DNA of 22,290 bases, taken from the IMG/VR virus record IMGVR_UViG_3300012964_000680, positions 1 to 22,290 of that record. One strand, given 5' to 3'. Of the stretch, positions 732 through 11,359 are shown in pieces. Under the pieces are notes generated by a model. That model worked only from the letters and a program-made list of their open reading frames with translations. It ran no database searches and was not told the origin of the DNA. Origin of the DNA: a virus. A program made the position numbers and the translations under genes. Position 1 is the stretch's first letter. Each line of letters opens with the position of its first letter.

Positions 732-2188
732 TGCCAAATATCCCAAAACTTTCCCCGGAAAATCAATTCCCTAAAGAGGCCATTCAAGAAAGTGTTCAGG
801 TGCAACCTGAACCTGCTATGGGTTCCACTGCGGTTCCGCTGTTTATGATCGGCGTGGCGACGGTGGCGGATCAAATCACCCCCTGGGGAAGAAATACAAA
901 GATACGGGATAGGCAACTGCGCGACTTTTGGCCTACCGAATCGTACCTTGCAGGCGCGGTCGCAAATGTCTCATTCAGAAATTCTGCCTTTGATTGGGAA
1001 ATCAAGGGTGGTTCGGAAAGAGTGAATCAGGCCGTTACGGATATGCTCCAGACCGCCATCGCTGGGGATGTGATCGGATGGACAACCTTCATTCAGAGAC
1101 TATCGCAGGATTTATACACACAGGACAACGGGGCATTTGTCGAATTGATCCGAGATCCCGGCATGGATGCGAACAGTAAGTTCAGGGGTTCAATGGCTCC
1201 CGTGATTGGAATTGCGAATCTGGATTCCGGGCAATGCACCCGTACCGGAAATTCTGAATATCCGGTCATCTACATTGACAGGAATAGCAGGGAACACAAG
1301 TTGAGATGGTACGAAGTCATTCCATTTTCCGATTTTCCATCTTCTATTGAAAAGATGAACGGTGTTGGGATTTGTGCAGTCTCCCGCGCTTTACGCCTTG
1401 CCCAGATTATGCGCTCAATTGCGTTGTTCAAGGACGAGGAAGTAGGCGGAAGAAATATCAAGAAAATTCAAATAGTTGGAGGAGTGGGACACCAGCAACT
1501 TTTGGATGCGATCAAGCGCACCGAGGAACAGGCAAATAATAAGGGAAATATTCGTTACATTGAACATGCGGTACTGGCTTCACTTGATCCGGAAAAACCT
1601 GTATCCGCAACAACTGTTGATCTTGCGTCGTTGCCGGAGGGATTCAATTTCGATCAGGAAATGCAATGGTATATCGCAGGATTAGCGCTTGATTTTGGTA
1701 CGGACTATCAGGAATTTGCGCCGCTTCCCGGCGGAAACATCGGTTCTGCTTCTCAAGGAAATGTACTCAACCGTAAGACCAGCGGCAAGGGACCGCGCAC
1801 GTTTATGGACCTTGTTTCCTCAGCCTTCAAGAATTATGGGGTTCTCCCGCGTGGAACAACACAGGTATTCAACGATAAAAACTCCGAAGAGGAGACAGAG
1901 AAACAGGTCATTCGCACAAAAGCACTTGAAGAAGCTGCCATTGCTGTAAACGCAAGCATCCTGACACCCGAAGCTGCTGCGAGGGATTTAGTAAAACGTG
2001 GTATATATGATGTGTCCACCATTGCCGACATCTCTCCCGACTTTTGGAAAAATGCAGAGAATCGAACGCAAGGTGGACAACTTGTAGGCAGCCGTGGTGG
2101 AAATACAATCGCCGAGGATGCCGCCAGACAGAATACAGGCAAACCCAGACTGACCGTAGCCGATAGGTTGAGGAAATGGTTTCCATAA
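731..2188 (+). CDS. Phage portal protein
   Basis: The product has 485 residues, in the normal size range for portals of HK97-type phages. Portals form the dodecameric ring at the capsid vertex through which DNA is packaged. The central part (about residues 55-340) has portal-like features: a segment on uninfected-cell-type membrane-free folds with LRDFWPTESYLAGAV, a region rich in short amphipathic helices, and a glycine-rich GGNIGSAS stretch before the C-terminal helical region. The N-terminal 35 residues and the last 40 residues are low in structure and rich in Q, G and N. The assignment rests on overall sequence impression and on the gene order portal, head-tail protein, protease, capsid. 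The start overlaps the stop of the upstream gene (TAATG) with GAGG just before it. The gene overlaps the next one by 13 bases, which suggests translational coupling. Confidence 0.8.
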   Translation: MPNIPKLSPENQFPKEAIQESVQVQPEPAMGSTAVPLFMIGVATVADQITPWGRNTKIRDRQLRDFWPTESYLAGAVANVSFRNSAFDWEIKGGSERVNQAVTDMLQTAIAGDVIGWTTFIQRLSQDLYTQDNGAFVELIRDPGMDANSKFRGSMAPVIGIANLDSGQCTRTGNSEYPVIYIDRNSREHKLRWYEVIPFSDFPSSIEKMNGVGICAVSRALRLAQIMRSIALFKDEEVGGRNIKKIQIVGGVGHQQLLDAIKRTEEQANNKGNIRYIEHAVLASLDPEKPVSATTVDLASLPEGFNFDQEMQWYIAGLALDFGTDYQEFAPLPGGNIGSASQGNVLNRKTSGKGPRTFMDLVSSAFKNYGVLPRGTTQVFNDKNSEEETEKQVIRTKALEEAAIAVNASILTPEAAARDLVKRGIYDVSTIADISPDFWKNAENRTQGGQLVGSRGGNTIAEDAARQNTGKPRLTVADRLRKWFP

Positions 2189-2679
2189 CAGTAAAAGTAA
2201 CACTGCCAAAGACAAAGTTTGCAAATAAAAAATGGTTGGAGGAAATCGCTAAAGTTCAGCGACAAACTTCTGTTCCACGGTTGAGAAAATTATTCCAGAA
2301 AACCGTGTTTGGCTGGAGCGAAAAACCTGATTTTGGATGGACTCAGAGGAGAACTTCCGATGAAATGTCGATCAGTATGTATCCCAGCGGAGAAAATGCG
2401 GAGAAGTGGGAATTAGTAAACGCTGGTTCTCCTCCCCACATAATCAACGCAAGACAGGGCGGATTTTTACGTTTCAGACCAGGCTATCGTTCTGCTACAA
2501 TTCCAGGTTCAATTCAAAGCAGGCGTGCGTACCGTTCTGGAAAATACGGTGCATGGCGGAGAGTTTCACACCCTGGATTTGAGGCTCGCAAATTTACAGA
2601 ACTGATTGCAGAGGAATATCATAATCCTTATATCAATGACATGCAGGATGCCATAAACGAGGCGGCAAAGAACAGATGA
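2176..2679 (+). CDS. HK97 gp10-like head-tail connector protein (putative)
   Basis: This 167-residue protein resembles the gp10-like/minor capsid family. In the middle it has a conserved pattern of a glycine-proline turn followed by an HIINA-type segment and GGFLRFRPG (near residues 85-103). Toward the end comes VSHPGFEARKF (about residues 131-141). That 'hPGf.ar.F' signature is typical of proteins of the head-tail interface. The start overlaps the end of the portal gene and the stop overlaps the next start (ATGA), so it belongs to the same operon. The exact role in this phage is inferred, since no tail genes are visible here. Confidence 0.65.
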   Translation: MVSITVKVTLPKTKFANKKWLEEIAKVQRQTSVPRLRKLFQKTVFGWSEKPDFGWTQRRTSDEMSISMYPSGENAEKWELVNAGSPPHIINARQGGFLRFRPGYRSATIPGSIQSRRAYRSGKYGAWRRVSHPGFEARKFTELIAEEYHNPYINDMQDAINEAAKNR

Positions 2680-3835: not shown

Positions 3836-3948
3836 AAAAAGCGTACTTCATCATGACTTTATATTGGATTATAGGCTTTTTGATTTTCTATGCCATCAGA
3901 CTGCATGGGTCAATCTACAAAAAGATACCGATGCGTTTCGGAAAATAG
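3832..3948 (+). CDS. Small single-pass membrane protein
   Basis: This 38-residue product is essentially one hydrophobic helix (about residues 4-23, YFIMTLYWIIGFLIFYAI) followed by a basic tail. Its ATG overlaps the stop of the preceding gene (ATGA), which supports translation by coupling. Its function is unknown. It ends the first operon, and the promoter of the HNH unit lies right behind it. Confidence 0.5.
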   Translation: MKKAYFIMTLYWIIGFLIFYAIRLHGSIYKKIPMRFGK

Positions 3949-3962
3949 TGACAAAAGTCATA

Positions 3963-3990
3963 TTGCAGTTTTCGGTGAATATGGTAAACT
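3963..3990 (+). promoter_or_regulatory. Promoter of the first RNA-leader/HNH unit
   Basis: TTGCAG (3963-3968) is followed after 16 bases by TAAACT (3985-3990). The extended -10 dinucleotide TG lies at the right place (3982-3983). Transcription would start near 3997, exactly at the first base of the long helix of the leader RNA. The second HNH unit also has a TGG-TAnAnT extended -10 box followed by AATTG. Confidence 0.6.
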
Positions 3991-3996
3991 AATTGT

Positions 3997-4139
3997 GGCG
4001 GCGCTCACGGTACCCCCCTTACCGCAGAGACCGCCAACTTATTTTGGCTTCTAAATCAGGTTGATTCAGCAACCCAACATATTTGTAAGACCTACATCCT
4101 CAACTCTTGGCTGAATACCTGAGTTGAGGATGTAGTTTT
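3997..4139 (+). ncRNA. Structured RNA leader upstream of HNH gene 1 (novel candidate)
   Basis: Three parts are visible. (1) A composite helix: GGCGG (3997-4001) with CCGCC (4031-4035), then CTC (4004-4006) with GAG (4027-4029), then CGGTA (4008-4012) with TACCG (4020-4024). It is capped by a loop of six C and one T. (2) A small hairpin, GGTTG (4059-4063) with CAACC (4070-4074), whose loop reads ATTCAG. (3) A perfect 15-bp hairpin (4092-4106 with 4121-4135) followed by TTTT. Its 14-nt loop contains CTGAAT (4111-4116), the exact complement of the ATTCAG loop, so a kissing interaction is possible. I recognise no known riboswitch, ribozyme or group I intron core. It may be an attenuating leader for the HNH gene or a short RNA in its own right. 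Confidence 0.55.
4092..4139 (+). terminator. Perfect 15-bp hairpin plus TTTT directly before the HNH ribosome site
   Basis: The arms 4092-4106 and 4121-4135 are fully complementary and are followed by four T. The Shine-Dalgarno GGAG (4140-4143) follows at once. This can act as a weak intrinsic terminator or attenuator, and as a structure that hinders ribosome access. The short T tract suggests partial rather than full termination. Confidence 0.6.
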
Positions 4140-4149
4140 GGAGAATAAA

Positions 4150-4638
4150 ATGAAATACACTATAAAGAATATAGAACGGTTCTGGGCAAGGGTAGATAAA
4201 GATCGTTCGCATACTTTTTACAATGGAACACGATGTTGGGAATGGACTGGAGGAGTTGTAAAGGGTGGTTATGGAATAATTAGAACGATGTATAAAAGAC
4301 ATACAGTTCATCGCATGTCTTTTATTATTAAGTATGGGGAGATTCAAGAAGGTTTATGCGTACTTCATCATTGCGATAATCCTTCCTGTGTAAATCCAGA
4401 ACACCTTTTTCTGGGAACCAATCAAGATAATTCAGATGATATGAAACAAAAAGGTAGGCAGGCAAGGATTTCAGGAGAAAGCCACTGGAAATCGAAACTG
4501 ACTGATAAGCAAGTATGTGAAATTCGTAAACGGTACTCGCCCTGGGGAAAGGGGGGAGAAAAATCAAGCACTCTTGCAAAAGAGTTTGGAGTTTCCCCAT
4601 CACTAATAATATATATTGTAAACAATAAGCGTCGCTAA
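4150..4638 (+). CDS. HNH homing endonuclease (HNH_3 type) 1
   Basis: The protein has 162 residues from ATG 4150. That start is chosen because GGAG (4140-4143) lies 6 bases before it; an in-frame TTG 12 bases upstream would overlap the ribosome site. The N-terminal block CWEWTG and the nuclease block VLHHCDNPSCVNPEHLFLG (about residues 70-90) are the hallmark of HNH_3 free-standing homing endonucleases. The C-terminal part (about 115-160) looks like a small helix-turn-helix that would help bind the target. The gene is richer in A and T than the capsid genes. It is enclosed by its own promoter, leader and terminator, so it looks like an inserted mobile unit. A paralogue lies at 10877. Confidence 0.88.
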   Translation: MKYTIKNIERFWARVDKDRSHTFYNGTRCWEWTGGVVKGGYGIIRTMYKRHTVHRMSFIIKYGEIQEGLCVLHHCDNPSCVNPEHLFLGTNQDNSDDMKQKGRQARISGESHWKSKLTDKQVCEIRKRYSPWGKGGEKSSTLAKEFGVSPSLIIYIVNNKRR

Positions 4639-4653
4639 AATATTCTCCTTCAT

Positions 4654-4689
4654 CTAAAAAGCCTCACGGTGTACCGTGAGGCTTTTTAG
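4654..4689 (+). terminator. Strong terminator after HNH gene 1
   Basis: A nearly perfect palindrome has 17-base arms, 4654-4670 and 4673-4689. It is A-rich on the left, GC-rich in the core and ends in TTTTT. It is symmetric, so it can end transcription from both directions, and it closes off the HNH unit from the protease operon. Confidence 0.9.
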
Positions 4690-4707
4690 AATCACAATAT
4701 TTTTTAT

Positions 4708-4739
4708 TTGCAAGTGTCATTTGTCACTATTTTTATGAT
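4708..4739 (+). promoter_or_regulatory. Possible promoter of the protease-capsid operon
   Basis: TTGCAA (4708-4713) and TATGAT (4734-4739) lie just after a terminator and 30 bases before the protease start. The 20-base spacer is longer than the usual 17, so the -35 assignment is weak. Some promoter is needed here because the terminator at 4654 is strong. Confidence 0.35.
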
Positions 4740-4768
4740 AAAATGTCATGGACACAAGGAAGGTCCCG

Positions 4769-8059: not shown

Positions 8060-8076
8060 CTTGCAAGACTCCAGTG

Positions 8077-8082
8077 TATAAT
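8077..8082 (+). promoter_or_regulatory. -10 box upstream of the glycan cassette
   Basis: A perfect TATAAT follows the capsid terminator. A TTGCAA at 8061-8066 is only 10 bases away, too close to be the -35 element, so the -35 is unresolved. Transcription would begin around 8088-8090, within the 5' arm of the leader helix. Confidence 0.5.
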
Positions 8083-8083
8083 A

Positions 8084-8168
8084 GTCGGTGTGAGTATTGT
8101 ACGAAATAGGCCGCGTACGAAATGACAGTGCTTCCCTGTTCTCACATCGACTCTTATGCACTGGAAGC
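8084..8168 (+). ncRNA. Structured leader RNA before the sugar dehydratase gene
   Basis: GTCGGTGTGAG (8084-8094) pairs with CTCACATCGAC (8141-8151) in an 11-bp helix with one G-T pair. Inside it, GTACG (8099-8103) pairs with CGTAC (8114-8118), and GTACGAAAT occurs twice (8099-8107 and 8115-8123). The enclosed CAGTGC (8126-8131) is complementary to GCACTG (8158-8163) downstream of the helix. The overlapping GCTTCC (8130-8135) is complementary to GGAAGC (8163-8168). Either pairing gives a pseudoknot, and they may alternate. No known riboswitch consensus is recognised. Because the predicted start falls inside the first arm, the full 11-bp helix may not be present in the primary transcript. Confidence 0.4.
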
Positions 8169-8193
8169 GTAAATAAAAGAATGAGAGGAAGCA

Positions 8194-9126
8194 ATGCTTA
8201 AAGATAAATCTTTGTTTGTTACGGGTGGAGCAGGCACATTAGGCCATGCAATTGCAGAACGAAGGAAACGGGAAGGGTGGACTGGAAGGATGACCGTTTA
8301 TTCCAGTGATACACATAAACACGAAAAGATGCGGAGACTTTACCCCGACGTAAATTTTGTTCAGGGTGATATTCGCAATCCCGAAACCCTCTATAACGCA
8401 ATGGTTGGACATGATGTTGTGTTGCATCTCGCGGCGGTCAAGGTCATTCCCGCTTCCGAACAATGGAGCCTGGATACCATTGACGTAAATATCAACGGCA
8501 GTATCAACGTCTGCGTGCAGGCCATCAGCGCAGGGATCAAACACGTATTGGGAATTTCAACGGACAAAGTTTGCCACTCAGCCAATGCGTATGGCGCAAC
8601 CAAATATTTGATGGAAAAGGTGTTTCAGGAATACTCCCGAATTGATTCGGGAACGCAGTTCCACCTTGTACGTTACGGAAATGTCCTGGAATCCAATGGA
8701 TCGGTTCTGGAAGCGTGGAGGAAAGCACAGGAAGATGGAAAACCTCTAATTGTCACCGATCCAGAGATGACGCGTTTCTGGATTTCCCCCCAACAAGCCG
8801 TTGATCTGGTGATTAGTGCAGTGAAATTGGAAAGCGGACTTGTTCTCATTCCAAAGATGAAGGCGCTTTCAATTGGAAAACTTGCGGAATACACGGTGGG
8901 AGCGGGATATAAATTCGAGAAGATCCAAATTCGCCCCGGTGAAAAGATGCACGAAACCCTCCTGACCGAGGAAGAACGTTTTTACGCAACCGAGTCACAG
9001 GATTTCTTCTTCCTGAGGCCATCAACCAGCCCGAAGGTTGTTACGCCAGTGGAAAAAACATACTCCAGTGACACGGCTCCCCTCCTGACCAAAACAGAAC
9101 TTGACGAGTTGTTACGAAATGAGTGA
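8194..9126 (+). CDS. NAD-dependent sugar dehydratase/epimerase (CapD/FlaA1/PseB-like)
   Basis: The product has 310 residues and starts behind AGAGGAA. It is an extended short-chain dehydrogenase: the nucleotide-binding loop TGGAGTLG is at residues 10-17, an acidic QGDIRN block follows near 57, then HLAAVK near 79, STDK near 121 and the catalytic YGATK near 133-137. The STDK...YGATK pattern and overall length fit UDP-GlcNAc 4,6-dehydratases/5-epimerases of the FlaA1/CapD/PseB group, which make deoxy sugars for surface glycans. The exact nucleotide sugar cannot be told. It opens the glycan cassette, which suggests that the phage supplies its own sugar donor. Confidence 0.85.
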   Translation: MLKDKSLFVTGGAGTLGHAIAERRKREGWTGRMTVYSSDTHKHEKMRRLYPDVNFVQGDIRNPETLYNAMVGHDVVLHLAAVKVIPASEQWSLDTIDVNINGSINVCVQAISAGIKHVLGISTDKVCHSANAYGATKYLMEKVFQEYSRIDSGTQFHLVRYGNVLESNGSVLEAWRKAQEDGKPLIVTDPEMTRFWISPQQAVDLVISAVKLESGLVLIPKMKALSIGKLAEYTVGAGYKFEKIQIRPGEKMHETLLTEEERFYATESQDFFFLRPSTSPKVVTPVEKTYSSDTAPLLTKTELDELLRNE

Positions 9127-10743: not shown

Positions 10744-10752
10744 TGGTATAAT
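10744..10752 (+). promoter_or_regulatory. Extended -10 promoter of the second RNA-leader/HNH unit
   Basis: TGG (10744-10746) followed by a perfect TATAAT (10747-10752) forms an extended -10 element. No good -35 is present, as is usual for this promoter class. Transcription would begin near 10759, at the 5' arm of the leader helix. Confidence 0.65.
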
Positions 10753-10756
10753 TGAA

Positions 10757-10868
10757 TTGTCGAGACTGAATAGCGCGGCTTTATGTTACAATCACTTATC
10801 ACCCGTTTTCTGTTTTGTGCTACCGCGCCAGTCTCGACAACTGAACAGGAACGGGTGCTTTGTTTTTG
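10757..10868 (+). ncRNA. Pseudoknotted RNA leader upstream of HNH gene 2 (novel candidate)
   Basis: TTGTCGAGACTG (10757-10768) pairs perfectly with CAGTCTCGACAA (10829-10840), 12 bp. Inside it, GCGCGG (10773-10778) pairs with CCGCGC (10823-10828) and stacks with no bulge on the 3' side. The 44-nt loop holds CACCCGT (10800-10806) and CTGTT (10810-10814). Just downstream of the helix, AACAG (10844-10848) and ACGGGTG (10851-10857) are their exact complements, 12 bp in all. Both helix sets can coexist as an H-type pseudoknot. The second set alone, followed by CTTTGTTTTT, would be a terminator with a large loop. The Shine-Dalgarno GGAG follows at once. No known RNA class is recognised. Confidence 0.6.
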
Positions 10869-10876
10869 GAGCAGAA

Positions 10877-11359
10877 ATGGACAGGCTGTTTTTAGACAAA
10901 AAAGATATTGAGCGTTTTTATAAAAATATATCTATAAAGAACATGGATGAATGTTGGGATTGGAAACTTAGACCTAACGAAGATGGGTATGGAAAATTTA
11001 AAGTAAAAGGGAAAACTCTCTTAGCTCACCGAGTTTCATATTTTATTAGTCATAAAACTCTTGGAGAAAATATGTTGGTTTGCCATACCTGTGATAATAC
11101 AATCTGCGTAAATCCACATCATTTATTTCTTGGAAAGCCGAAAGATAATTCTTCTGACATGGTATCTAAAAACAGACAAGCATTTGGAGACAAAAATGGA
11201 AGGTCTAAACTTTCATGGGAATTAGTGGGTACGATTAGATCATTATTTTCAAGTGGAGTTAGTCAGTCAAAATTAGCTAAAAAGTTTCATGTAAGTGATT
11301 TTGTTATATGGGGAATAGTTCACAATAAATTATGGAGGATAAACGATGGTAATAACTAA
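10877..11359 (+). CDS. HNH homing endonuclease (HNH_3 type) 2
   Basis: The 160-residue protein starts at ATG 10877, 6 bases after GGAG (10868-10871). The reading frame continues upstream only through the RNA leader, so the longer version is rejected. CWDW, a GYGKF segment, AHRVSYF, and the nuclease block LVCHTCDNTICVNPHHLFLG (about residues 67-87) align well with HNH gene 1. The C-terminal helix-turn-helix region (about 115-155) is also shared. The gene is AT-rich compared with its neighbours. It overlaps the next gene by 14 bases, so it sits in front of the sugar kinase as the first gene of that transcript. Confidence 0.88.
   Translation: MDRLFLDKKDIERFYKNISIKNMDECWDWKLRPNEDGYGKFKVKGKTLLAHRVSYFISHKTLGENMLVCHTCDNTICVNPHHLFLGKPKDNSSDMVSKNRQAFGDKNGRSKLSWELVGTIRSLFSSGVSQSKLAKKFHVSDFVIWGIVHNKLWRINDGNN

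Follow-up and report, generated by a model that had tools for sequence, protein, structure and literature searches.

Structured leader of an HNH gene in an uncultured phage: a probable attenuator within an apparently inserted homing-endonuclease cassette

The region 3963-4150 of the viral DNA analysed here (a metagenomic IMG/VR record of 22,290 bases, hereafter the window) is probably the 5' leader of a self-contained homing-endonuclease cassette, in which a hairpin in front of the endonuclease gene (HNH1) most likely lowers output, chiefly by attenuation; this reading is held with moderate confidence. The cassette lies between a structural-gene operon and a protease-like gene. Its anatomy, the lack of HNH1 at this junction in relatives and the promoter architecture shared with a relative are seen directly in the sequences. 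What we infer for transcription, for termination and for the direction of the effect on HNH1 is that a promoter subject to an operator-like motif of the phage's own would start transcription near 3997, yielding an RNA in which a stable 5' helix is followed by a terminator-like hairpin of 15 bp that abuts the ribosome site, by the HNH gene and by a strong terminator. Through partial termination (attenuation), which would include read-through from upstream, the 15-bp hairpin would keep the endonuclease low, and it might in addition affect initiation at the neighbouring ribosome site. The features concerned are the following, in window coordinates.

3948-3961, plus strand: operator-like motif GTGACAAAAGTCAT, immediately following the stop codon of the preceding gene; the motif also stands before promoters in relatives
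3963-3990, plus strand: promoter, with -35 TTGCAG (3963-3968), 16 nt and extended -10 TGG-TAAACT; aligned with the HNH-gene promoter of L041 / L220
3996-4036, plus strand: composite 5' helix of 14 bp, made up of 6+3+5 bp, with the loop CCCCCCT (six C and a U)
4059-4074, plus strand: small hairpin GGTTG-ATTCAG-CAACC, with the loop ATTCAG
4092-4135, plus strand: perfect 15-bp hairpin (arms 4092-4106 and 4121-4135), with the 14-nt loop TTGGCTGAATACCT holding CTGAAT; terminator-like and adjacent to the ribosome-binding site (RBS)
4136-4139, plus strand: four-T tract behind the 15-bp stem, read from the sequence
4140-4143, plus strand: Shine-Dalgarno (SD) sequence GGAG of HNH1, read from the sequence
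4150-4638, plus strand: HNH1, a 162-aa HNH_3 endonuclease gene (PF13392, 2e-11; PHROG 1872, 4e-29)
4653-4690, plus strand: 18-bp hairpin with a U tract, intrinsic terminator behind HNH1; its arm GTACCGTGAG is complementary to CTCACGGTAC at 4004-4013
4714-4744, plus strand: second operator-like motif (4714-4727) and -10 TAAAAT (4739-4744), promoter of the protease-like gene

The anatomy of the cassette is compact. HNH1 is classed as a putative homing endonuclease gene by its HNH_3 domain and its match to PHROG 1872, and it is bracketed by two long stems, the 15-bp stem ending 15 nt before its start codon and the 18-bp stem beginning 15 nt past its stop codon. A scan for perfect stems (12 bp or longer, loop of at most 20 nt), applied to the real window and to shuffles of it, returned just these two stems (4092-4135 and 4653-4690) in the 22,290 bases and none in the shuffles, and thus the 15-bp hairpin cannot be put down to chance. 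For the region 3963-4160 the predicted folding energy is -60.7 kcal/mol (z -4.45 against dinucleotide shuffles, with 0 of 200 as stable), and the 5' helix on its own (3991-4040) reaches a z of -2.79; located at the very start of the transcript, this helix may protect the mRNA. The structures named in a first-pass annotation of this DNA are each present in place, including the composite helix with its six-C loop, here counted as 6+3+5 bp, and the perfect 15-bp hairpin, and its interpretation as a structured leader with its own promoter before an HNH gene is supported. Its statement that the hairpin touches the ribosome site holds in that only 4 nt separate the stem from the SD, but the SD itself is not covered. 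The segment CTCACGGTAC of the 5' helix (4004-4013) is also perfectly complementary over 10 bp to GTACCGTGAG in the 3' terminator of HNH1 (4671-4680), with P 0.0008 for the 5' helix and 0.005 for the whole leader; this match may reflect long-range 5'-3' pairing or related palindromes at both cassette ends.

Sixteen related loci were found by their capsid protein, and a deeper alignment added two close loci, L228 and L231, together with three distant ones; no relative of this uncultured group was found among the phage records searched. HNH1 is absent between gp167 (window 2176-2679) and the protease-like gene in 13 relatives (L009, L011, L012, L014, L015, L016, L018, L019, L020, L021, L025, L228 and L231), in which short intergenic DNA or a small ORF is found instead. 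At this same position L010 carries approximately 3.3 kb of other genes, and the window has three further small genes between gp167 and the HNH1 unit. In several relatives the junction before the protease gene carries a single promoter; its palindromic motif (GTGACAAATGTCAT in L009) precedes TATAAT or a close variant by 9 to 11 nt. The HNH1 unit of the window lies between two copies of this operator-like motif, of which the second (4714-4727) shows the usual 11-nt spacing to TAAAAT and matches the single motif and promoter of the relatives, and the first (3948-3961) is part of a 19-bp inverted repeat with 4715-4733. Because the motif occurs twice in the window and once in the relatives, leader, HNH1 and terminator together have the appearance of an expression cassette that was inserted here; the G+C content of the cassette is 39%, against 46% for the window. 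Insertion of the promoter, leader, HNH1 and terminator at the protease junction, with the motif now flanking them, would be the simplest reading of these sequences. Two interrupted genes are seen in relatives: the protease-like gene of L014 (7459-9957) is interrupted by approximately 0.95 kb near residue 212 of the match, and the epimerase-like gene of L231 (8315-10345) by approximately 1.1 kb at residue 127, each a possible intron or insertion.

The extended -10 promoter that the first-pass annotation had placed before the leader (TG at 3982-3983, TAAACT at 3985-3990) was not listed by a plain consensus promoter scan (its -35 is poor), and support for it is found in a relative, record G001 (locus L041, L220). 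An AP2-type HNH gene there is preceded by GTGACGAATGTCATATTG, and the bases that follow align with the window promoter (ATTGNANTNTNCGNNGAANNTGNTAAANT-AATTG); the alignment behind the operator motif scores above all 2000 shuffles, and the distance from motif to -10 is 23 nt in both. This match makes a transcription start near 3997 likely. Scanning for exact matches to the operator motif and its flank led to this one relevant place (L220 being the same as L041), as did a scan with the whole promoter pattern, whose four other matches look like chance. Palindromic motifs near TGACAAATGTCA often follow immediately on a stop codon and precede a -10 box by 9-11 or 21-23 nt (window 3948-3961 and 4714-4727; L009 1925, 3520 and 12815; L019 8124 and 11777; L021 434; and L041), and are likely to be the operator of a regulator in this phage group.

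The likeness at L041 extends past the promoter. There the motif is followed by 23 nt, an extended -10, AATTG, a strong hairpin, six T, the SD AGGAG and the start codon of the AP2-type HNH gene. The order of motif, promoter, hairpin with T tract, SD and HNH start is therefore found twice in the phage group, before two unlike HNH genes, and the two hairpins are unrelated in sequence. Since the HNH gene of L041 overlaps the next gene, the hairpin there may serve an operon. The same unit bears on a quite unlikely alternative for the window, namely that the promoter, folded body and terminator-like end, which span approximately 143 nt, delimit a small non-coding RNA (approximately 3997-4139) with the HNH gene reached behind it by read-through. 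Such an RNA is difficult to reconcile with an SD that comes 4 nt after the stem and with the parallel unit of L041, which has a short hairpin alone and no RNA body, and searches of phages, HNH loci and related records returned no homologue of it.

The 15-bp hairpin has a predicted stability of -25.6 kcal/mol and its base lies 4 nt before the SD, adjacent to the RBS without covering it, as in the seg43(25) type. Judged as a terminator it has a strong stem and four T only, with a d'Aubenton-Carafa-type score of 13.7; on the same scale the L041 hairpin scores 23.4 and the terminator behind the capsid gene 64.4. Partial termination is plausible on this modelling, and with only four T behind the stem it may be weak. 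Pure translational control, in which the hairpin and an anti-SD stretch (4039-4055) would hide the ribosome site in the manner of I-TevI or mobE, is an unlikely explanation, albeit one with precedent in the translational hiding known for T-even homing endonucleases (PMC2988022). In transcripts ending by 4170, RNAfold indeed pairs the SD and AUG with 4039-4055 (UUCUAAA with UUUGGAG and the AUG), leaving the SD unpaired at 0.08-0.09. With more than 40 nt of coding sequence, however, the SD is approximately 0.38 open and the AUG approximately 0.72, and shuffled leaders behave similarly: the SD accessibility of approximately 0.38 is not significantly below theirs (mean 0.43 to 0.53, coding sequence included), and when the sequence upstream of the stem is shuffled, 20 to 43% of the resulting leaders shut off the SD to the same degree or more. 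Moreover, the promoter lies 100 nt upstream of the hairpin, so that read-through and promoter-made transcripts would both carry it, unlike the situation in I-TevI. The anti-SD helix at 4039-4055, considered as an element in its own right, was discarded as no better than shuffles. No claim is made here for sequestration of the ribosome site by the leader, as the predicted blocking is no stronger than with shuffled leaders.

The HNH1 leader is an orphan, with no Rfam family and no homologue in approximately 190 HNH loci or 20 related records. A search of Rfam 15, sub-threshold matches included, gave no family at the gathering threshold and only chance miRNA and sRNA matches; blastn against INPHARED phages detected no DNA homology; and comparison with the 20 related IMG/VR records matched the operator part only, two other 14-base matches being chance. 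The single-sequence covariance model (R2) recovered its own sequence and its own mirror match alone in 189 sources, and nothing in 15 records, a search run without a positive control. The nearest HNH1 proteins (up to 54% identity) have unlike leaders, and no similar structure was seen in the leaders of HNH relatives L003-L007. The earlier conclusion that no known RNA class fits is therefore correct as regards Rfam families and too strong functionally, given that RBS hairpins of phage homing endonucleases are known (PMC2988022), although the leader sequence itself is new. There is no ground for a riboswitch or ribozyme, as the leader is without Rfam match or homologue.

The first-pass annotation had further drawn attention to a complementarity between the loop ATTCAG (4064-4069) and CTGAAT in the loop of the 15-bp hairpin. 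This complementarity is present in 6 of 6 bases, for which the chance is approximately 0.002 for two random loops of these sizes; it is suggestive but weak, given the number of loop pairs that a reader may inspect. Because the leader has no homologue in the data searched from which covariation could be read, kissing of the two loops stays hypothetical. A switch in which this pairing alters the effect of the hairpin on termination or on the ribosome site is very unlikely: the complete match and a 17-nt linker would permit pairing, but the match is known from a single sequence, and no such pairing was obvious in the other leaders looked at. More doubtful still is a leader acting as an RNA switch in which kissing hairpins, possibly together with the CTCACGGTAC/GTACCGTGAG pairing, set whether the RBS-adjacent hairpin stops RNA polymerase or the ribosome.

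Strong hairpins before HNH_3 genes recur but are not the rule. In a sample of 160 HNH relatives (80 viral and 80 from bacterial and archaeal genomes), with start codons picked by a simple rule that misplaced some leaders, the leaders were slightly more stable than control starts from the same loci (mean z -0.70 versus -0.26, p 0.009), and values below z -2.5 were found in 10.5% of the relatives versus 3.1% of the control starts. A stem of 12 bp or more lay no further than 80 nt from the start in 3 of 160 relatives versus 0 of 339 controls, and local SD accessibility did not differ between relatives and controls (p 0.44).

The reading as an attenuating leader of a self-contained cassette is favoured by the bracketing of HNH1 with the only two perfect stems of at least 12 bp in 22 kb, by the leader z of -4.45, by the 13 relatives without HNH1, by the 39% G+C and by the flanking motif copies. 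It is also favoured by the same order of elements at L041, by HNH_3 leaders being somewhat more stable than controls and by the T-even precedent (PMC2988022). It is weakened by the tract of four T only, by an SD that lies outside the stem with an accessibility like that of shuffles, and by the gene overlap at L041, where the hairpin may serve a whole operon.

A candidate structured RNA family that differs from the HNH1 leader is located behind the major capsid gene, at window 8075-8200 and in 15 related phages (L009 16515, L010 11521, L011 11571, L012 11585, L013 3112, L014 11581, L015 11578, L016 6819, L017 2883, L018 5399, L019 11809, L022 3520, L025 11589, L228 7588 and L231 7577). It comprises a three-way junction with a 20-bp P1 that has a -10 hexamer in its 5' arm, a P2 hairpin with a loop often like TGGCC or TGATC, and a P3 hairpin with the invariant loop GCTTCC. 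A GGAAGC-like segment downstream can pair with the P3 loop (15 of 16 by eye, G-U pairs included), and a second such segment is the SD of the next gene in most members. P1 is paired in 96.1% of cells, with both sides changed in 16 of 18 pairs, and its covariation score is 0.834, where shuffles give 0.240 and sliding gives no more than 0.168; 14 of the 16 sequences went into the model, and the alignment was fitted to P1, favouring P1 somewhat. An Rfam search of this RNA returned no family at the gathering threshold. The next gene varies (epimerase-like or AP2-HNH), and thus the RNA is tied to its location rather than to the HNH gene; a switch between P3 loop pairing with the first GGAAGC or with the SD is possible. 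The HNH1 leader, considered as a member of this family (R1), was rejected with a best match of 1.6 bits at 3983-4057 versus 64.2 bits at 8075-8168. The leader of HNH gene 2 (window 10746-10880), which has TATAAT, a composite helix of 12 bp plus 6 bp and a loop CACCCGTT complementary to AACGGGTG before the SD (a predicted H-type pseudoknot), may belong to the same family in diverged form (a search of 301 bases gave 9 bits, E 0.04). The search uncovered a strongly covarying, pseudoknotted candidate leader family in the same phages. Another hairpin type, CCCCGCGCTGTT..AGCAGCCGGGGCATG, recurs approximately 50 nt before HNH_3 starts in unrelated contigs (L049, L052, L054, L073, L091, L129 and L205), often with a small hairpin after it, close to the SD, and no Rfam match was found in these loci.

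Several control systems of phage homing endonucleases are available for comparison. Stable hairpins are placed over the ribosome site of I-TevI, I-TevII, I-TevIII, segB and Aeh1 mobE (PMC2988022), and the window shares with I-TevI, segB and Aeh1 mobE an RNA structure at the start of the endonuclease gene (PMC2988022, PMC3014915). In those three, however, the ribosome site lies inside the stem, whereas the window stem ends at 4135 and the SD occupies 4140-4143. Likewise, only upstream transcripts form the I-TevI hairpin, whereas the window promoter lies approximately 100 nt upstream of the 15-bp stem and both arms would always be transcribed; the HNH1 leader therefore lacks both defining features of the I-TevI type, a ribosome site in the stem and a promoter giving one-armed transcripts. 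I-TevI is also subject to transcriptional autorepression through an operator resembling its homing site (PMC2988022), which the operator-like motif at the cassette promoter recalls, since it also marks the junction at which relatives lack the cassette; this parallel is only a lead because the motif also stands before other genes. T4 mobE has a weak terminator, a possible limit on the endonuclease (PMC2988022), and a weak intrinsic terminator limiting endonuclease transcripts is likewise proposed for the window, but that of mobE lies inside the coding region and that of the window before the ribosome site. The closest known case is seg43 of Aeromonas phage 25, whose very stable hairpin is predicted to lie just ahead of the ribosome site and to leave it uncovered (PMC2988022). 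The two differ in that seg43 is segD-like, whereas the window has an HNH_3 gene, its own operator and promoter and an extra 5' helix, and the effect of the hairpin is putative in both. By analogy, the best reading of the window leader is a cis-acting element that would limit endonuclease expression, with an anatomy of the seg43(25) kind. Hairpin control of homing endonucleases, known from T-even phages, would thereby be extended to an uncultured phage group, and HNH1 illustrates how a homing endonuclease gene that has a promoter and terminator of its own can form an insulated unit between structural genes.
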